From the NCBI GenBank assembly GCA_026398695.1, contig JAPLSJ010000030.1, positions 1 through 64,000 of the forward strand: a stretch of 64,000 bases of DNA, given 5' to 3'. Positions 30,386-54,346 of this stretch are shown here, one piece after another. The notes under the pieces are model-generated. The model did not search any database. It saw only the letters and a list, made by a program, of their open reading frames with translations, and was not told where the DNA came from. The position numbers and the translations under genes are program-made. Every line of letters starts with the position of its first letter. Position 1 is the stretch's first letter. The DNA is from Arenimonas sp. (GTDB taxonomy: Bacteria; Pseudomonadota; Gammaproteobacteria; Xanthomonadales; Xanthomonadaceae).

Positions 30386-30452
30386 CGTACCAGGTACATT
30401 TTCATCGTCGATGAGACTGCGTCTCAGCGACGATGAAAATGTACCTGGTACG
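30386..30452. repeat. 25-bp perfect inverted repeat with nested central and terminal palindromes
   Basis: CGTACCAGGTACATTTTCATCGTCG (30386-30410), 17-nt centre ATGAGACTGCGTCTCAG, CGACGATGAAAATGTACCTGGTACG (30428-30452). Confidence 0.95.
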
Positions 30453-49030: not shown

Positions 49031-49956
49031 GGCAGCAGCTCCGCGCGCGGGCCGGCCACTGCCGACACGTGCGGGTCGCTGCCCAGGCCCGCGGCGGCGA
49101 ACGCCGCCACCATCGCCGCGGCGGCGGCCACGGCCGGGTCGCGCTGTTCGAACCAGGCGAAGACGCTGGGGCCTGCGCCGGAAATGCTGGCCCCCATCGC
49201 GCCGGCGGCCAGCGCCGCCTGCTTCACGCCCGCGAAGCCCGGGATCAGCGGCGCGCGGCGGGGTTCCACCAGGTGGTCGTGCAGGCCGGCGCGCACGAGG
49301 GCGGCGTCGCCGCGCTCGCAGCCCAGCAGCACCTGCGCCAGCGCGGCGCTCTGCACCACGAAGTCATGCAGCGCGAACGGTGCCGCCAGCGCCGCGCGCG
49401 CCACCCGGGTCTCCAGCGCGAAGTGCGGACGCACCACGGCGCAGTGCCAGTGCGCAGGCACGGCGATCGGCACCAGGCGCTCCGCCGTGGCCAACACCAG
49501 CCCGCCCACCAGCATCGGCCCGACGTTGTCGCCGTGCAGGCCGCCGCTGGCGACCGCTTCGCCCGCCATGGCGAACGGGTACAGCGCCTCGCGCGGCAGC
49601 GGCGCGTCCAGCAGCGCATTCGCCGCCACCAGGGCGGCCACGCACGAGGCCGCCGAGCCGCCCAGGCCCGACCCCAGTGCGATGCCCTTGTCGAGTTCGA
49701 TTTCGAAGCCGTACTCCAGGCCCAGCGCCTCGCGCAGCGCGATCAGCGCGGCGCCGGCGGTATTGGCCGCGGCCGCCATCGGCAGGCCCTCGACGCCGCC
49801 GCGGATCGCGGCGATGCGCACCACGGGGGCGGCGATGCGGCGAACGGTGGCCGTATCGCCCGGGCCGGCCAGGCTGTGGCCCAGGATGTCGAAGCCCACG
49901 CCGACGTTGCCGACCGAAGCGGGGGAAAACGCGCGTGCGCTGGCAGGCGGGCTCAC
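49027..49956 (-). CDS. thrB: Homoserine kinase
   Basis: [44 protein letters not shown]. Confidence 0.95.
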
Positions 49957-52448
49957 AGCCGCGCCCCGAGCGCCGACGCCAGCCGCAGCAGGTCGGAGAA
50001 CACGCCGGCCGCCGTCACTTCGGGGCCGGCGCCGGGGCCCTGCACGATCAGCGGGTTGTCGCGGTAGCGGCGGGTGGTGAATTGCACGATGTTGTCCGTC
50101 AGTCGAAGGTGGGCGAAGGCGTGGTCGCGCGGCAGTTCCACCAGCGCGACGCTGGCCTGGCCATCGTGCCCGAGCCGCGCCACGTAGCGAAGCACCTGTC
50201 CGCGCGCGGTGGCGTCGGCGAGCCGCTGCGCCATCGGTGCGTCCAAGTCCTGCAGCGACGCCATGAAGCCTTCGCGAGAGGCGGCGCGCAGGGCGTCGGG
50301 CACCAGGCCTTCGACCCGCACGTCGTCGAGCGACAGCGCGATGCCCGCCTCGCGCGCCAGGATCACCAGCTTTCGGGCCACGTCCATGCCCGACAGGTCT
50401 TCGCGCGGGTCGGGCTCGGTGTAGCCCAGCGCGTGCGCTTCGCGCACCAGCAACGAGAAGGGCTGGCTGCCGTCGTAGCGGTTAAACAGCCAGGCCAGCG
50501 TGCCCGACAGGATGCCTTCGACTGCGACCAGTTCGTCGCCGGTGTCGAGCAGGTCGCGCAGGGTCTGGATCACCGGCAGGCCGGCGCCCACGGTCGCCTC
50601 GTAGCGCAGGCGGGCGCCGCTGGCTTCGCTGGCCGCGTGGATGGCCTGGCGCCGCGCGAGCGGGCCGGCCACGGCGTGCTTGTTCGGCGTGATCACGTGG
50701 ATGCCCGCCGCCAGCCAGCCCGCGTAACGGTTGGCGATGGCGTCGCTGGCGCTGCAGTCCACGATCACGGCATGCGGCAGGTGGGCGCCCAGCAGGTGCG
50801 GCGCCAGCGCGTCCAGGTCGCCGTCGGTGGCGCTGGCCAGGTGGTCGCGCCACGCGCCGGGCGCGCCGTGTTCGCCCAGCCACAGCCTGCGGCTGTCGGC
50901 CAGTGCGCGCAGGCGCAGGTCCAGGCCCGCGCCTTCGCGCAGGCGCGGCATGGCCGCTTCCACCTGGTCGAGCAGTGCGGCACCGACCTTGCCGGGGCCG
51001 ATCACCGCCAGCGCCACCGTCTGCGGTGACAGCCAGAAGCTGGCGTGCGCGGCGCGCAGCGCGCGGGTGGCGTCCTCGGCGGCGACCGCCACGGAAATAT
51101 TTCGCTCGGACGCGCCCTGGGCGATGGCGCGGATGTTCACCCGCGCCCGCGCCAGCGCGCCGAACAGCCGCGCCGCCACGCCCGGCGTGCCAGCCATGCC
51201 GTCACCCACCGCCGCCAGCACGCTGACGCCGTCGGTGAGCTGCACGCCCTGCACCTGGCCGGCGGCCAGTTCGCGGTCGAAGGCGCGCAGCAGCGCGGCG
51301 CGCGCCTGGGCCGCTTCGCCGCTGCGCACCACGCAGCAGATCGAATGTTCGGACGAGCCCTGGGAAATCATCACCACCGAGATGCGCGCCGCGTGCAGCG
51401 CAGCGAACACGCGCTCGGCCGTGCCCGGCACGCCGATCAGGCCCGCGCCCTCCAGGCTCACCAAGGCCAGGTCGCTGCTCAGCGTCAGCCCCTTCACCGG
51501 GCCGCCCGGCCCGCCGTCGAGTGCGATGCGCGTGCCCGGCACCTGCGGGCGGAACGTGTTGCGGATCAGCACCGGCATGTTGCGGGCAATGGCCGGCGTG
51601 AGCGTCTGCGGATGGATCACCTTGGCGCCGAAGTAGGCCAGTTCGCAGGCCTCGCGGTAGCTCAGCGCCGGCAGCGGCACGGCTTCGGGCACCAGCCGAG
51701 GGTCGGCCGACAGCACGCCGTCCACGTCGGTCCAGATGTGCAGTTCATCGGCTTCGAACAGCGCCGCGAAGATGGCGCCGGAGTAGTCGCTGCCGTTGCG
51801 CCCGAGCACCGTGGGCAGGCCGTCTTCGCCGCTGGCGACGAAGCCGGTGGCCACCACGCGCGGCGACGGGTTGGCCGCGCGCCAGCGCTTGAGGTTGTCG
51901 CGGCTGGCCGGCCAGTCCACGGCCACGCCCAGCTCTTCATGCCGCACGCGCAGCACCTCGCGGGCATCGAGCAGGGCGCAGTCGGCGCCGCGCGAACGCA
52001 GGTGCGCCCACAGCAGCCGTGCCGACCACACTTCGCCGAGCCCCTGGATGCGTTCGAAGGCCGGCCGGCCCGGGGCGCCGAGCACGGACGTGGCCTGCAG
52101 CAGCCCGGCCAACTGTTCGACCTGGGCTTTCAGCCAGGCCTGCAGGTCGTCGGCGTCGTCGCCCAGCAGGGCGCGGGCGGCCTCGGTGTGGCGCTGGCGC
52201 AGGGCGAGCAGGGCAGGGCGCCAGTCGCGCGCGGAGGTGGCCGCCTCTGCCAGGCCGATCAATGCGTCGGTGACGCCCTGCATCGCGGACACCACGGTGA
52301 TCTGCCCGGGTTCGTCGGCCGCCAGCAGCAGGTCGGCGACATGGCGTATGCGCGAGGCGTCGGCGAGCGAGCTGCCGCCGAACTTGTGCGCGCGGGTGCG
52401 CAGGGCGACCGGTGAGGCGGGTTTTTCTTCAAGCAGCGACGCGTTCAT
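49953..52448 (-). CDS. thrA: Bifunctional aspartokinase/homoserine dehydrogenase I
   Basis: [24 protein letters not shown] region; [24 protein letters not shown]. Confidence 0.97.
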
Positions 52449-52465: not shown

Positions 52466-52535
52466 CCGCGCAACGGTTCAGGGGAGGGTGATGCCGGCCC
52501 GCCTCTGTCGAGGTGCGGGGCCGTGGGTGGATTTG

Positions 52536-52610
52536 TTATCCAGGCAAGACCGACCGCACCACCGCGAGGGTAGTGGTGGTAATGGTCGTGGTGGTGGTGT
52601 GCCTAGACAT
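52536..52610 (-). CDS. thrL: thr operon leader peptide
   Basis: ATG..TAA encodes MSRHTTTTTITTTTLAVVRSVLPG (9 Thr + 1 Ile in a 10-codon run), 87 bp upstream of thrA; too short for the ORF track. Confidence 0.9.
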   Translation of the reverse strand: MSRHTTTTTITTTTLAVVRSVLPG

Positions 52611-52616
52611 GACCCG

Positions 52617-52646: not shown

Positions 52647-52695
52647 CCGGGGGCGGTGGTGTCCTTGCACGACGAGGCATCCGGCGCCGTCGACA

Positions 52696-52767
52696 CCGCG
52701 GAAGCGAGGGGCACGTCCTGCTCAGTGAGGCCTTTTATTTCGCAGGACGTGCCCCTCGCTTCCGCGG
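52696..52767. repeat. Terminal hairpin of left copy
   Basis: 26-bp perfect arms CCGCGGAAGCGAGGGGCACGTCCTGC around 20-nt loop TCAGTGAGGCCTTTTATTTC. Confidence 0.97.
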
Positions 52768-53463
52768 CGCCGCCGGTGCATTCCGGCTTGGGCGCCTAAC
52801 GGAGGGCGGGTGAGCCCGCGCTCTGATGCTTACGCGTGTGGATCCGGACCAAGGCGGGGCATCTTTCTTGCAGATCGGGCCCGGCTAACCCGGCCTCGGC
52901 TCGAACGCTGTCCTGGCACATCGCGGCGCGTCCCTTCGGACACTTGTCGCGGCCTCGGCGCGATCGGGGAAGACGGCCAGCCCGATGGTCCTATCCGCCC
53001 GGCGGCGGGTGTGGGTTCGACGCGCGCACGACGTCACTCCCTGCGTTCGAAAGAGCGCACAGGCGATCACCGGCTGATCGAAAAACGGCTGACCCATTCG
53101 ATCCGTCGACCACTCAGGAATCCACGCACCGCCCTGGCGTAGTGGTGCTTTTTCCAATGCCGGCGTGCCGGCGGATCAGTTCCGACAAGGGATGCCACGG
53201 TGTGCGCGCCAGGAACCTACACCCGCCGCCGGGCGGATAGGACCATCGGGCTGGCCACCTTCCATGCTGGCCCTGCCGCCGCATCAAGTGTCCGAAGGGA
53301 CGCGCCGCGATGGGCGAGGAGCAAGAATTTGCCGGACGCGGGTTAGCCCGACCCGATCTGCAAGAAAGATGCCCCGCCTTGGTCCGGATCCACACGCGCA
53401 AGCATCGAAGCGAATCGCCACGGGCCTTCCGTCAAGCCAACAAGAAGATCCGTACCGGCGGCG

Positions 53464-53535
53464 CCGCGAAGGCGAGGGTCGCTTCCTGCGAAATAAAAGG
53501 CTTCACTGAGCAGGAAGCGCCCCTCGCCTTCGCGG
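53464..53535. repeat. Terminal hairpin of right copy (inverted)
   Basis: 26-bp arms with one mismatch (CCGCGAAGGCGAGGGTCGCTTCCTGC / GCAGGAAGCGCCCCTCGCCTTCGCGG), loop GAAATAAAAGGCTTCACTGA is reverse complement of left loop but for 1 nt. Confidence 0.97.
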
Positions 53536-53548
53536 TGCGGCCGGCGCC

Positions 53549-54346
53549 TCAGAGGAGCTCGAAGCGATCAGCGTCCAGCTGGGCGGGGAAGCGTTCGCGG
53601 TGGGCGGCCAGGGCTTGCGCCGAAAAGACCACGGTGGCCACGCGCACCTGGTCGTCGAGCTCCACCAGCGGCTGGCCCAGGAAATCCAGGGCGACGCTGT
53701 CGCCGCTGTAGGCGTGGCCATTGCCGTCGGTGCCCACGCGGTTCACGCCGACCACGTTGCACAGGTTTTCGATGGCGCGTGCGCGCAGCAGGGTCTGCCA
53801 GGCGTAGCGGCGCGGGCTGGGCCAGTTGGCGACGAACAGCAGCAGGTCGTAGTCGAACCTGTCCGGCGCTTCGACCCCGAAACGGTTGCGGATGAACACC
53901 GGGAAGCGCAGGTCGTAGCAGACCAGCGGGCACACGCGCCAACCCTTCAGCAGCACCGTGAGGCGGTCGCGGCCGGCGGCGTAGCGCTCGTGCTCGCGCG
54001 CCATGCGGAACAGGTGGCGCTTGTCGTAGGTATGCAGCTCGCCGTCGGGCGTGGCCCACAGAAGGCGGTTGTAGACGCCCTCGCCTTCCCGGATCTGCAC
54101 GCTGCCGGTGACCACGGCGCCGAGCTTCGCGGCCTGTTCGCGGATCCAGGCCACGGTGGGGCCGTCCATGCCTTCGGCGTTGGCCAGGGCGTCGTTGCTG
54201 AAGCCCGAAGTGAAGGTTTCCGGCAGCACCACCAGGTCGGTCTGGCCGGCCAGCGGCGCGATCAGTGCGCCGTAGCGCTCGCGGTTGGCGGCCGGGTCGT
54301 GCCAGGCGGTGTCGCCCTGCACCAGCGAAATGCGCAGGTCGTCCAT
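53549..54346 (-). CDS. Carbon-nitrogen hydrolase, omega-amidase YafV/Nit2-like
   Basis: LRISLVQGDTAWHDPAANRERY; DLVVLPETFTSGFS; VCPLVCYDLRFPVFIRN. Confidence 0.92.
   Translation of the reverse strand: MDDLRISLVQGDTAWHDPAANRERYGALIAPLAGQTDLVVLPETFTSGFSNDALANAEGMDGPTVAWIREQAAKLGAVVTGSVQIREGEGVYNRLLWATPDGELHTYDKRHLFRMAREHERYAAGRDRLTVLLKGWRVCPLVCYDLRFPVFIRNRFGVEAPDRFDYDLLLFVANWPSPRRYAWQTLLRARAIENLCNVVGVNRVGTDGNGHAYSGDSVALDFLGQPLVELDDQVRVATVVFSAQALAAHRERFPAQLDADRFELL

Follow-up and report, generated by a model that had tools for sequence, protein, structure and literature searches.

For REPs, the palindrome measures 20–40 bp with a stem of 5–13 bp, carries a GTAG or CGTC tag, and usually has its partner 20–100 bp away (PMC3733652). 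The repeat described here, found in a window that is the whole 64,000-nucleotide stretch of Arenimonas DNA analysed, resembles REPs and REPINs (PMC3116915, PMC3733652) in several respects: each unit is made of two inverted hairpins, as seen in 24 of 24 complete pairs, the sequences are non-coding, intergenic and dispersed, single hairpins occur as remnants, the full-length unit is able to fold as a single long hairpin, and a RAYT gene is present in the genus. It differs from the REP palindrome and tag in having a 96-bp hairpin with a stem of 26–38 bp, GGCGCC at its ends and a GGTTCTTCTCCC-like terminus outside, and from REPINs in being several times longer, with a conserved 20-nt loop and ~450–670 bp between the hairpins. 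In addition, at most ~11 sites per genome were seen, as opposed to tens to thousands for REPs, and the Arenimonas RAYT is not flanked by element hairpins in six genomes.

Recognition of subterminal hairpins as single-stranded DNA, as in IS200/IS605 (Y1 HUH) elements, would explain a DNA hairpin with a conserved loop. The ends of IS200/IS605 elements are not inverted copies of each other, whereas those of the Arenimonas unit are, and no Y1 transposase lies between the hairpin ends in any copy read. MITEs and foldback elements are similar in being non-autonomous, with long terminal inverted repeats, several copies per genome and no coding capacity; in contrast to them, each end of the Arenimonas unit is itself a covarying hairpin, and no parent insertion sequence with the same ends appeared among the matches listed. 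Bacterial stem-loop sequence families, reported from a set of 40 genomes, are by their general description likewise dispersed intergenic sequences folding into stem-loops, and as so described they differ from the Arenimonas unit with its fixed two-hairpin, two-arm layout (PMC2267715). The best reading is that the repeat is functionally most like a REPIN or a MITE, while failing as a REP on size, tag, spacing and RAYT linkage. We consider a hairpin-ended, non-autonomous mobile DNA element of the genus Arenimonas to be the most probable explanation, with a probability of roughly 0.6.

Structure of the inverted repeat in the window

An earlier note on this DNA had described two arms facing each other, with positions x and 106231−x pairing without gaps over 52696–53030. 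Its hand count of 267 identical columns out of 335 was reproduced exactly, as were the poorly matching block at 52901–52910 (1 of 10 identical) and the loss of similarity toward the centre, identity being at background level inside ~53033. A repeat search within the window extended the arms to 52683–53034 on the plus strand and 53197–53548 on the minus strand, the match consisting of two gap-free segments on a shared axis, 52683–52892/53339–53548 (210 nt, 81%) and 52911–53034/53197–53320 (124 nt, 84%). The inverted repeat is not a product of chance, since the right arm, an inverted copy of the left, is 80% identical to it with E = 3.6e-86, and the fold of the 866 bases stands at z = −33.9 relative to shuffles. 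Homologues of the left arm occur in 10 other Arenimonas genomes.

Each arm begins at its outer end with a 96-bp hairpin, followed by a linker and then by core motifs. The left terminal hairpin (52684–52779, plus strand, 38-nt arms) is matched by the covariance model R1 at 52683–52781 (E 1.4e-22), has a covarying stem, and carries the conserved loop TCAGTGAGGCCTTTTATTTC at 52722–52741; the right one (53455–53544, minus strand, 35-nt arms) is matched at 53450–53548 (E 4.8e-22), with the loop TCAGTGAAGCCTTTTATTTC at 53490–53509, read on the minus strand. Both loops are near-invariant across the aligned copies. On the plus strand of the left arm, the first core block (52833–52879) comprises 47 bases that are the same in both arms and includes two motifs, GCGCGTG and ATCTTTC, that almost every arm has kept, the second (52919–52946) contains GCGCGTCCCTTCGGAC and forms a small local hairpin in most other arms, and the third (52975–53012, CCGCCCGGCGGCGGGTG) is conserved within the species group of the window. 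The centre of the element (53035–53196) is unpaired and non-conserved, has no inverted-repeat match, and varies among copies. A putative outermost left terminus of ~25 bp (52658–52682, plus strand), proposed after comparison of the outer flanks of ~60 ends, is weak and degenerate in the window copy, while other copies have a GGTTCTTCTCCCAAGT-like sequence there.

The length constraint proposed for the element stands for the two arms in the window and fails for the family, whose total lengths spread over ~650–870 bp with indels between the arms of different copies. Even in the window, a gapped alignment admits small compensating gaps near 52890–52930, at a score of 347 versus 344 ungapped. The blocky pattern of identity is real; it reflects motifs conserved in all arms and possibly arm-to-arm conversion rather than a constraint on arm–arm pairing. 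The few changes common to both arms of the window copy are also a hint at conversion.

The two-ended unit

Among the matches listed, all 24 complete copies are plus-then-minus pairs with the hairpins outermost, and none is tandem or reversed; 10 of these pairs are in the single-contig genome G003. The unit is ~0.65–0.9 kb long, with ~450–670 bp between the hairpins, and nearly all of 44 arms contain the hairpin with its loop, TGCTTGCGCGTG, ATCTTTC.TGC and GG.TAA. Two end types, A and B, were distinguished within a species among the aligned arms; in subfamily 1 of A. daejeonensis (G003, name inferred) the likeness is 0.87 between A ends and 0.88 between B ends, compared to 0.64 between A and B. 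Because A-type and B-type ends are each conserved across the copies of a genome, the sequence comparison indicates that the pair is the unit that spreads and that its two ends are distinguishable. The notion of 420-bp arms as independent elements that had come to face each other by chance was accordingly given up, as every complete copy is a pair with two end types.

Outside the GGCGCC start there is another common stretch of ~25 bp, abutting the T-run of a terminator, which reads GGTTCTTCTCCCAAGT... in several species and TTCTTGCTCGCGG...GGATCT in G003 and G004. The true ends of the element would lie in this outer stretch. Coding potential was rejected, as the frames common to both arms end early in other copies and the open reading frames of the element have no family match in Pfam or NCBIfam.

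Covariation of the terminal hairpin

Across 34 aligned hairpins, 25 of the 34 stem pairs show compensating double changes and 97.5% of the cells pair, and none of 500 shuffles, nor any slid control, comes close to this covariation. The terminal stem, of 26–38 bp around a near-fixed loop of 20 nt, is strongly covarying. In the stem cells, G-T occurs in only 2 of 884 and A-C, which is the wobble of the other strand, in 15. Since G-U would be tolerated in an RNA helix, the scarcity of G-T in this covarying stem argues for a DNA hairpin rather than an RNA one, and the complementarity would be kept at the DNA level, either by strand copying or by selection on the DNA hairpin.

A covarying structure across the whole arm was also sought and rejected, the terminal hairpin and one short stem being the only helices with good support. 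The A arm and B arm of the same element pair no better than arms taken from different elements, with 14 of 120, 214 of 720 and 22 of 24 permutations reaching the observed value, and selection for arm–arm pairing was discarded on the ground that same-element arms are no more alike. As the arms do not co-vary, the long palindrome is a by-product of two homologous ends, not a maintained structure.

These results bear on the second option of the earlier note, a structured RNA, in which the 420-bp arm would be the RNA and the locus a single non-coding RNA gene or two such genes facing each other. Its conserved blocks, stable folding and covarying hairpin are what such a gene would show, yet the support is confined to the terminal hairpin, where the scarcity of G-T points to DNA, and covariation supports no helix well beyond that hairpin and one small stem. 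Wobble pairs are nearly absent whichever strand is read, and no promoter-like site was found. A known RNA family was rejected as well, since Rfam gives no match at the gathering score within the element and only a tRNA elsewhere in the window; a permissive search returned mostly microRNA families, well below their cut-offs. We regard an RNA gene as highly improbable.

Distribution within Arenimonas

The draft genome of the window contains further copies: inverted pairs lie on C12 and C132, C117 has a copy truncated by the contig edge, and C24 carries a solo hairpin. A DNA search of this genome and its relatives recovered multiple copies per genome with differing flanks. Close copies were identified in 11 of 28 Arenimonas genomes and a diverged version in a twelfth (G013). 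The R1 model of the terminal hairpin, run at a threshold of E ≤ 0.001, matched 13 of the 28, comprising the 11 genomes with close copies, G013, and G018 with one weak match. No R1 match was obtained in 53 other genera of the family, the DNA search of relatives outside Arenimonas gave nothing beyond very short weak matches, and the plasmids, phages and viral contigs searched were free of the element. A scan for the loop pattern in one genome per bacterial or archaeal species found carriers in Arenimonas daejeonensis, A. terrae, A. metalli and A. malthae. The repeat is restricted to the genus Arenimonas and was previously unlisted: it matches no Rfam family at the gathering score, and no name for it, either as an Arenimonas repeat or as a matching bacterial element, appears in the open-access literature searched (subscription literature being outside the scope).

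The loop pattern was also present in two metagenome bins labelled Rhizobium (L083) and Burkholderiales (L094). These labels look like mis-binning, as the Rhizobium-labelled bin is probably G023, which a genome search places within Arenimonas.

Draft contigs often start or stop inside or beside a terminal hairpin (e.g. G002:C41, G002:C20, G010:C432 and G023:C196), and the copy numbers obtained from draft genomes are therefore underestimates.

At the exonuclease/TonB-receptor site, the unit of G013 combines terminal hairpins with an inner inverted repeat (97%), and little sequence beyond the loop is shared. The diverged units of this genome (L245:1015–1755 and L244:971–1471) keep the layout of hairpin plus inner inverted repeat while having next to no identity with the window element outside the loop, and in this one genome the layout outlives the sequence.

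Genomic placement

Where the open reading frame calls were backed by recognisable genes, ~15 copies lie between convergent genes, 8 between co-directional genes and none between divergent ones, a departure from 1:2:1 with p ~5e-5 and 1e-3. An intrinsic terminator pointing inward was found no more than 110 bp from 25 of 65 ends, as compared to 1.6% of random stretches, mostly at a distance of 18–45 bp from the hairpin. Orthologous sites that lack the element were found at two loci. Behind rhlE, at its 3' end, G003 and G004 carry the element, whereas G024, G027, G000 and G002 do not; at suhB/secF it is present in G003, G004 and G021, a solo hairpin occupies the site in G024, and nothing is there in G020, G022 and G019. 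These filled and empty sites come from species too diverged for precise insertion boundaries or a target-site duplication to be read from them. At suhB/secF, the copy of G021 clusters with other G021 copies and not with those of G003 and G004, which points to strong within-genome turnover or conversion.

Two side observations were made around these loci. On contig G010:C6, beside secF (L180), a run of ~70 G starts immediately behind the stop codon of secF and closes the contig, which is likely an artefact of sequencing or assembly. In G003, G004 and G019, a different hairpin lies downstream of the exonuclease gene (L291:2409–2522, L271:2304–2419 and L281:1213–1350); it has a stem of 31–38 bp and a loop of 52–62 nt containing a GGATGGATTCACGGC motif, the loop being inverted between G003 and G004.

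Several sites, such as suhB/secF and the exonuclease/TonB site, are common to distant species, and against the mobile reading it may be said that these would be as compatible with long-established or selected residents as with mobile elements. It is conceivable that the repeat is a domesticated 3'-end element, possibly stemming from a mobile one, whose hairpins, as RNA or DNA, insulate neighbouring genes from each other in both directions by stopping or protecting transcripts, and which is kept at gene ends by selection. The marked preference for convergent gene ends and for sites right behind terminators, the lack of copies between divergent genes, the sites filled in several diverged species, and the position of the window copy and of the C12 element of G000 directly after stop codons without a terminator of their own would all suit such a function. 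However, the neighbours often have terminators already, which would make the element redundant there, orthologous sites are often empty in relatives, the stems, unlike RNA helices, are almost devoid of G-T pairs, and the hairpin in the window is not followed by a T-tract; the same placement would also result if the element simply avoided promoters. An insulator is an unlikely explanation. The mobile-element option of the earlier note is the better supported of its two, given the many copies with unrelated flanks, the species-specific subfamilies, the empty orthologous sites, the fixed two-ended architecture and the absence of coding content.

Recombination and the junction in the window

The solo hairpins of G024 are hybrids of the outer arms of the two ends, which is what recombination between the paired hairpins would produce. 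The suhB/secF copies of A. daejeonensis (G003) and A. terrae (G004, name inferred) have interiors in opposite orientations, while the outermost linker is not inverted.

The window copy lies between the thr leader and an amidohydrolase gene, the flanking genes being on the minus strand. On one side are thrA (49953–52448), encoding bifunctional aspartate kinase/homoserine dehydrogenase I (NCBIfam NF006959, 978 bits against a cut-off of 726), and the thr leader peptide MSRHTTTTTITTTTLAVVRSVLPG (52536–52610), which was read from the sequence and coincides with a sub-threshold Rfam Thr_leader match at 52500–52612. On the other is the omega-amidase-like gene (53549–54346; NF007757, 267 bits against 249), and, as had been remarked before, the outer end of the element at 53548 abuts its stop codon (TCA at 53549–53551). 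Neither the neighbour downstream of the omega-amidase gene nor that upstream of thrA is common to relatives, and the expected outer terminus is absent on the omega-amidase side. An ordinary insertion between conserved neighbours was rejected for this site because neither neighbour is conserved in relatives. With the neighbours unshared and the terminus missing, the window copy probably marks a rearrangement junction and not a simple insertion; alternatively, a mis-assembly of the draft may have created the omega-amidase/element/thr junction. The solo hairpins, the inverted interior and the break in synteny at the window copy are marks of recombination.

Candidate mobilising enzymes

No transposase gene lies inside the element in any copy read. 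In the DNA and model searches of the genus and family, every match among those listed was either a non-coding unit or a solo hairpin; none was an autonomous copy carrying a transposase between ends of this kind, in drafts that break at repeats. The one transposase examined was a RAYT orthologue (NCBIfam REP_Tyr_transpos; REP-associated tyrosine transposase), at least 71% identical, which occurs in each of the 11 close-copy genomes and also in 3 of the 17 others (G012, G017 and G022). RAYT as a linked partner was rejected, as no element hairpin was seen beside the gene within the flanks read in six genomes. RAYT may be considered a candidate mobiliser only, since common ancestry explains its distribution equally well.

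A related proposal is that the repeat is a greatly enlarged member of the REPIN/REP class moved by the RAYT of the genus. Two inverted hairpins forming a non-coding unit, solo remnants, and a RAYT orthologue in 11 of 11 close-copy genomes speak for it. On the other hand, the repeat lacks a GTAG or CGTC tag, has a stem of 26–38 bp rather than 5–13 and an interior of ~450–670 bp rather than 20–100 (REP figures from PMC3733652), the RAYT genes of six genomes are without flanking element hairpins, and the ordinary GTAGGAGCGCC..GGCGCTCCTAC palindromes of the genus are likelier RAYT partners. The proposal seems improbable.

Other palindromes were observed in the vicinity of RAYT genes. Near the orthologue of G021 (L353:4010–4092) there is a perfect 24-bp GTAG-type palindrome, GTAGGAGCGCCTTCAGGCGCGAAT / ATTCGCGCCTGAAGGCGCTCCTAC, which probably represents the genus's ordinary REP. 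At 30386–30452 of the window, a 32-bp hairpin that is almost perfect (CGTACCAGGTACATTTTCATCGTCGATGAGAC, 3-nt loop) has a relative (GAAAATATACCAGGTACATTTTCA / TGAAAATGTACCTGGTACATTTTC) near the RAYT orthologue of the same genome (L351:769–823), and the two possibly form a separate repeat family.

Proposed mechanism and implications

For the non-autonomous mobile element that we favour, it is plausible that the gene for the enzyme that moves the unit lies elsewhere and that this enzyme recognises the core motifs together with the hairpin, the latter in single-stranded DNA form, perhaps in the manner in which Y1/HUH transposases recognise IS200/IS605 ends or REPs. Insertion would take place near the T-run of terminators, and the stems would stay complementary either via strand-on-strand copying (template switching or gene conversion) or by selection on the DNA hairpin. 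Later recombination between arms may delete the interior and leave solo hairpins, flip the interior, or join distant loci, the last being the most likely source of the omega-amidase/thr junction. A more speculative view, which we hold only tentatively and consider rather unlikely, is that the repeat represents a distinct class of hairpin-addressed elements that insert right behind intrinsic terminators and are long kept at orthologous gene ends, with DNA-level copying of the hairpin keeping the stems complementary during sequence turnover, so that in G013 only the loop and the layout would be recognisable.

If the favoured reading is right, the REPIN or MITE type of non-autonomous DNA would extend to units that are several times as large and whose covarying DNA hairpin is far bigger, and the tail of an intrinsic terminator would be a possible landing place from which such units could spread with little harm. 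The scarcity of G-T in a strongly covarying stem offers a test case for maintenance of a hairpin at the DNA level versus selection on RNA. For Arenimonas itself, the element explains assembly breaks and probably at least one change of gene order in the genomes of this genus.
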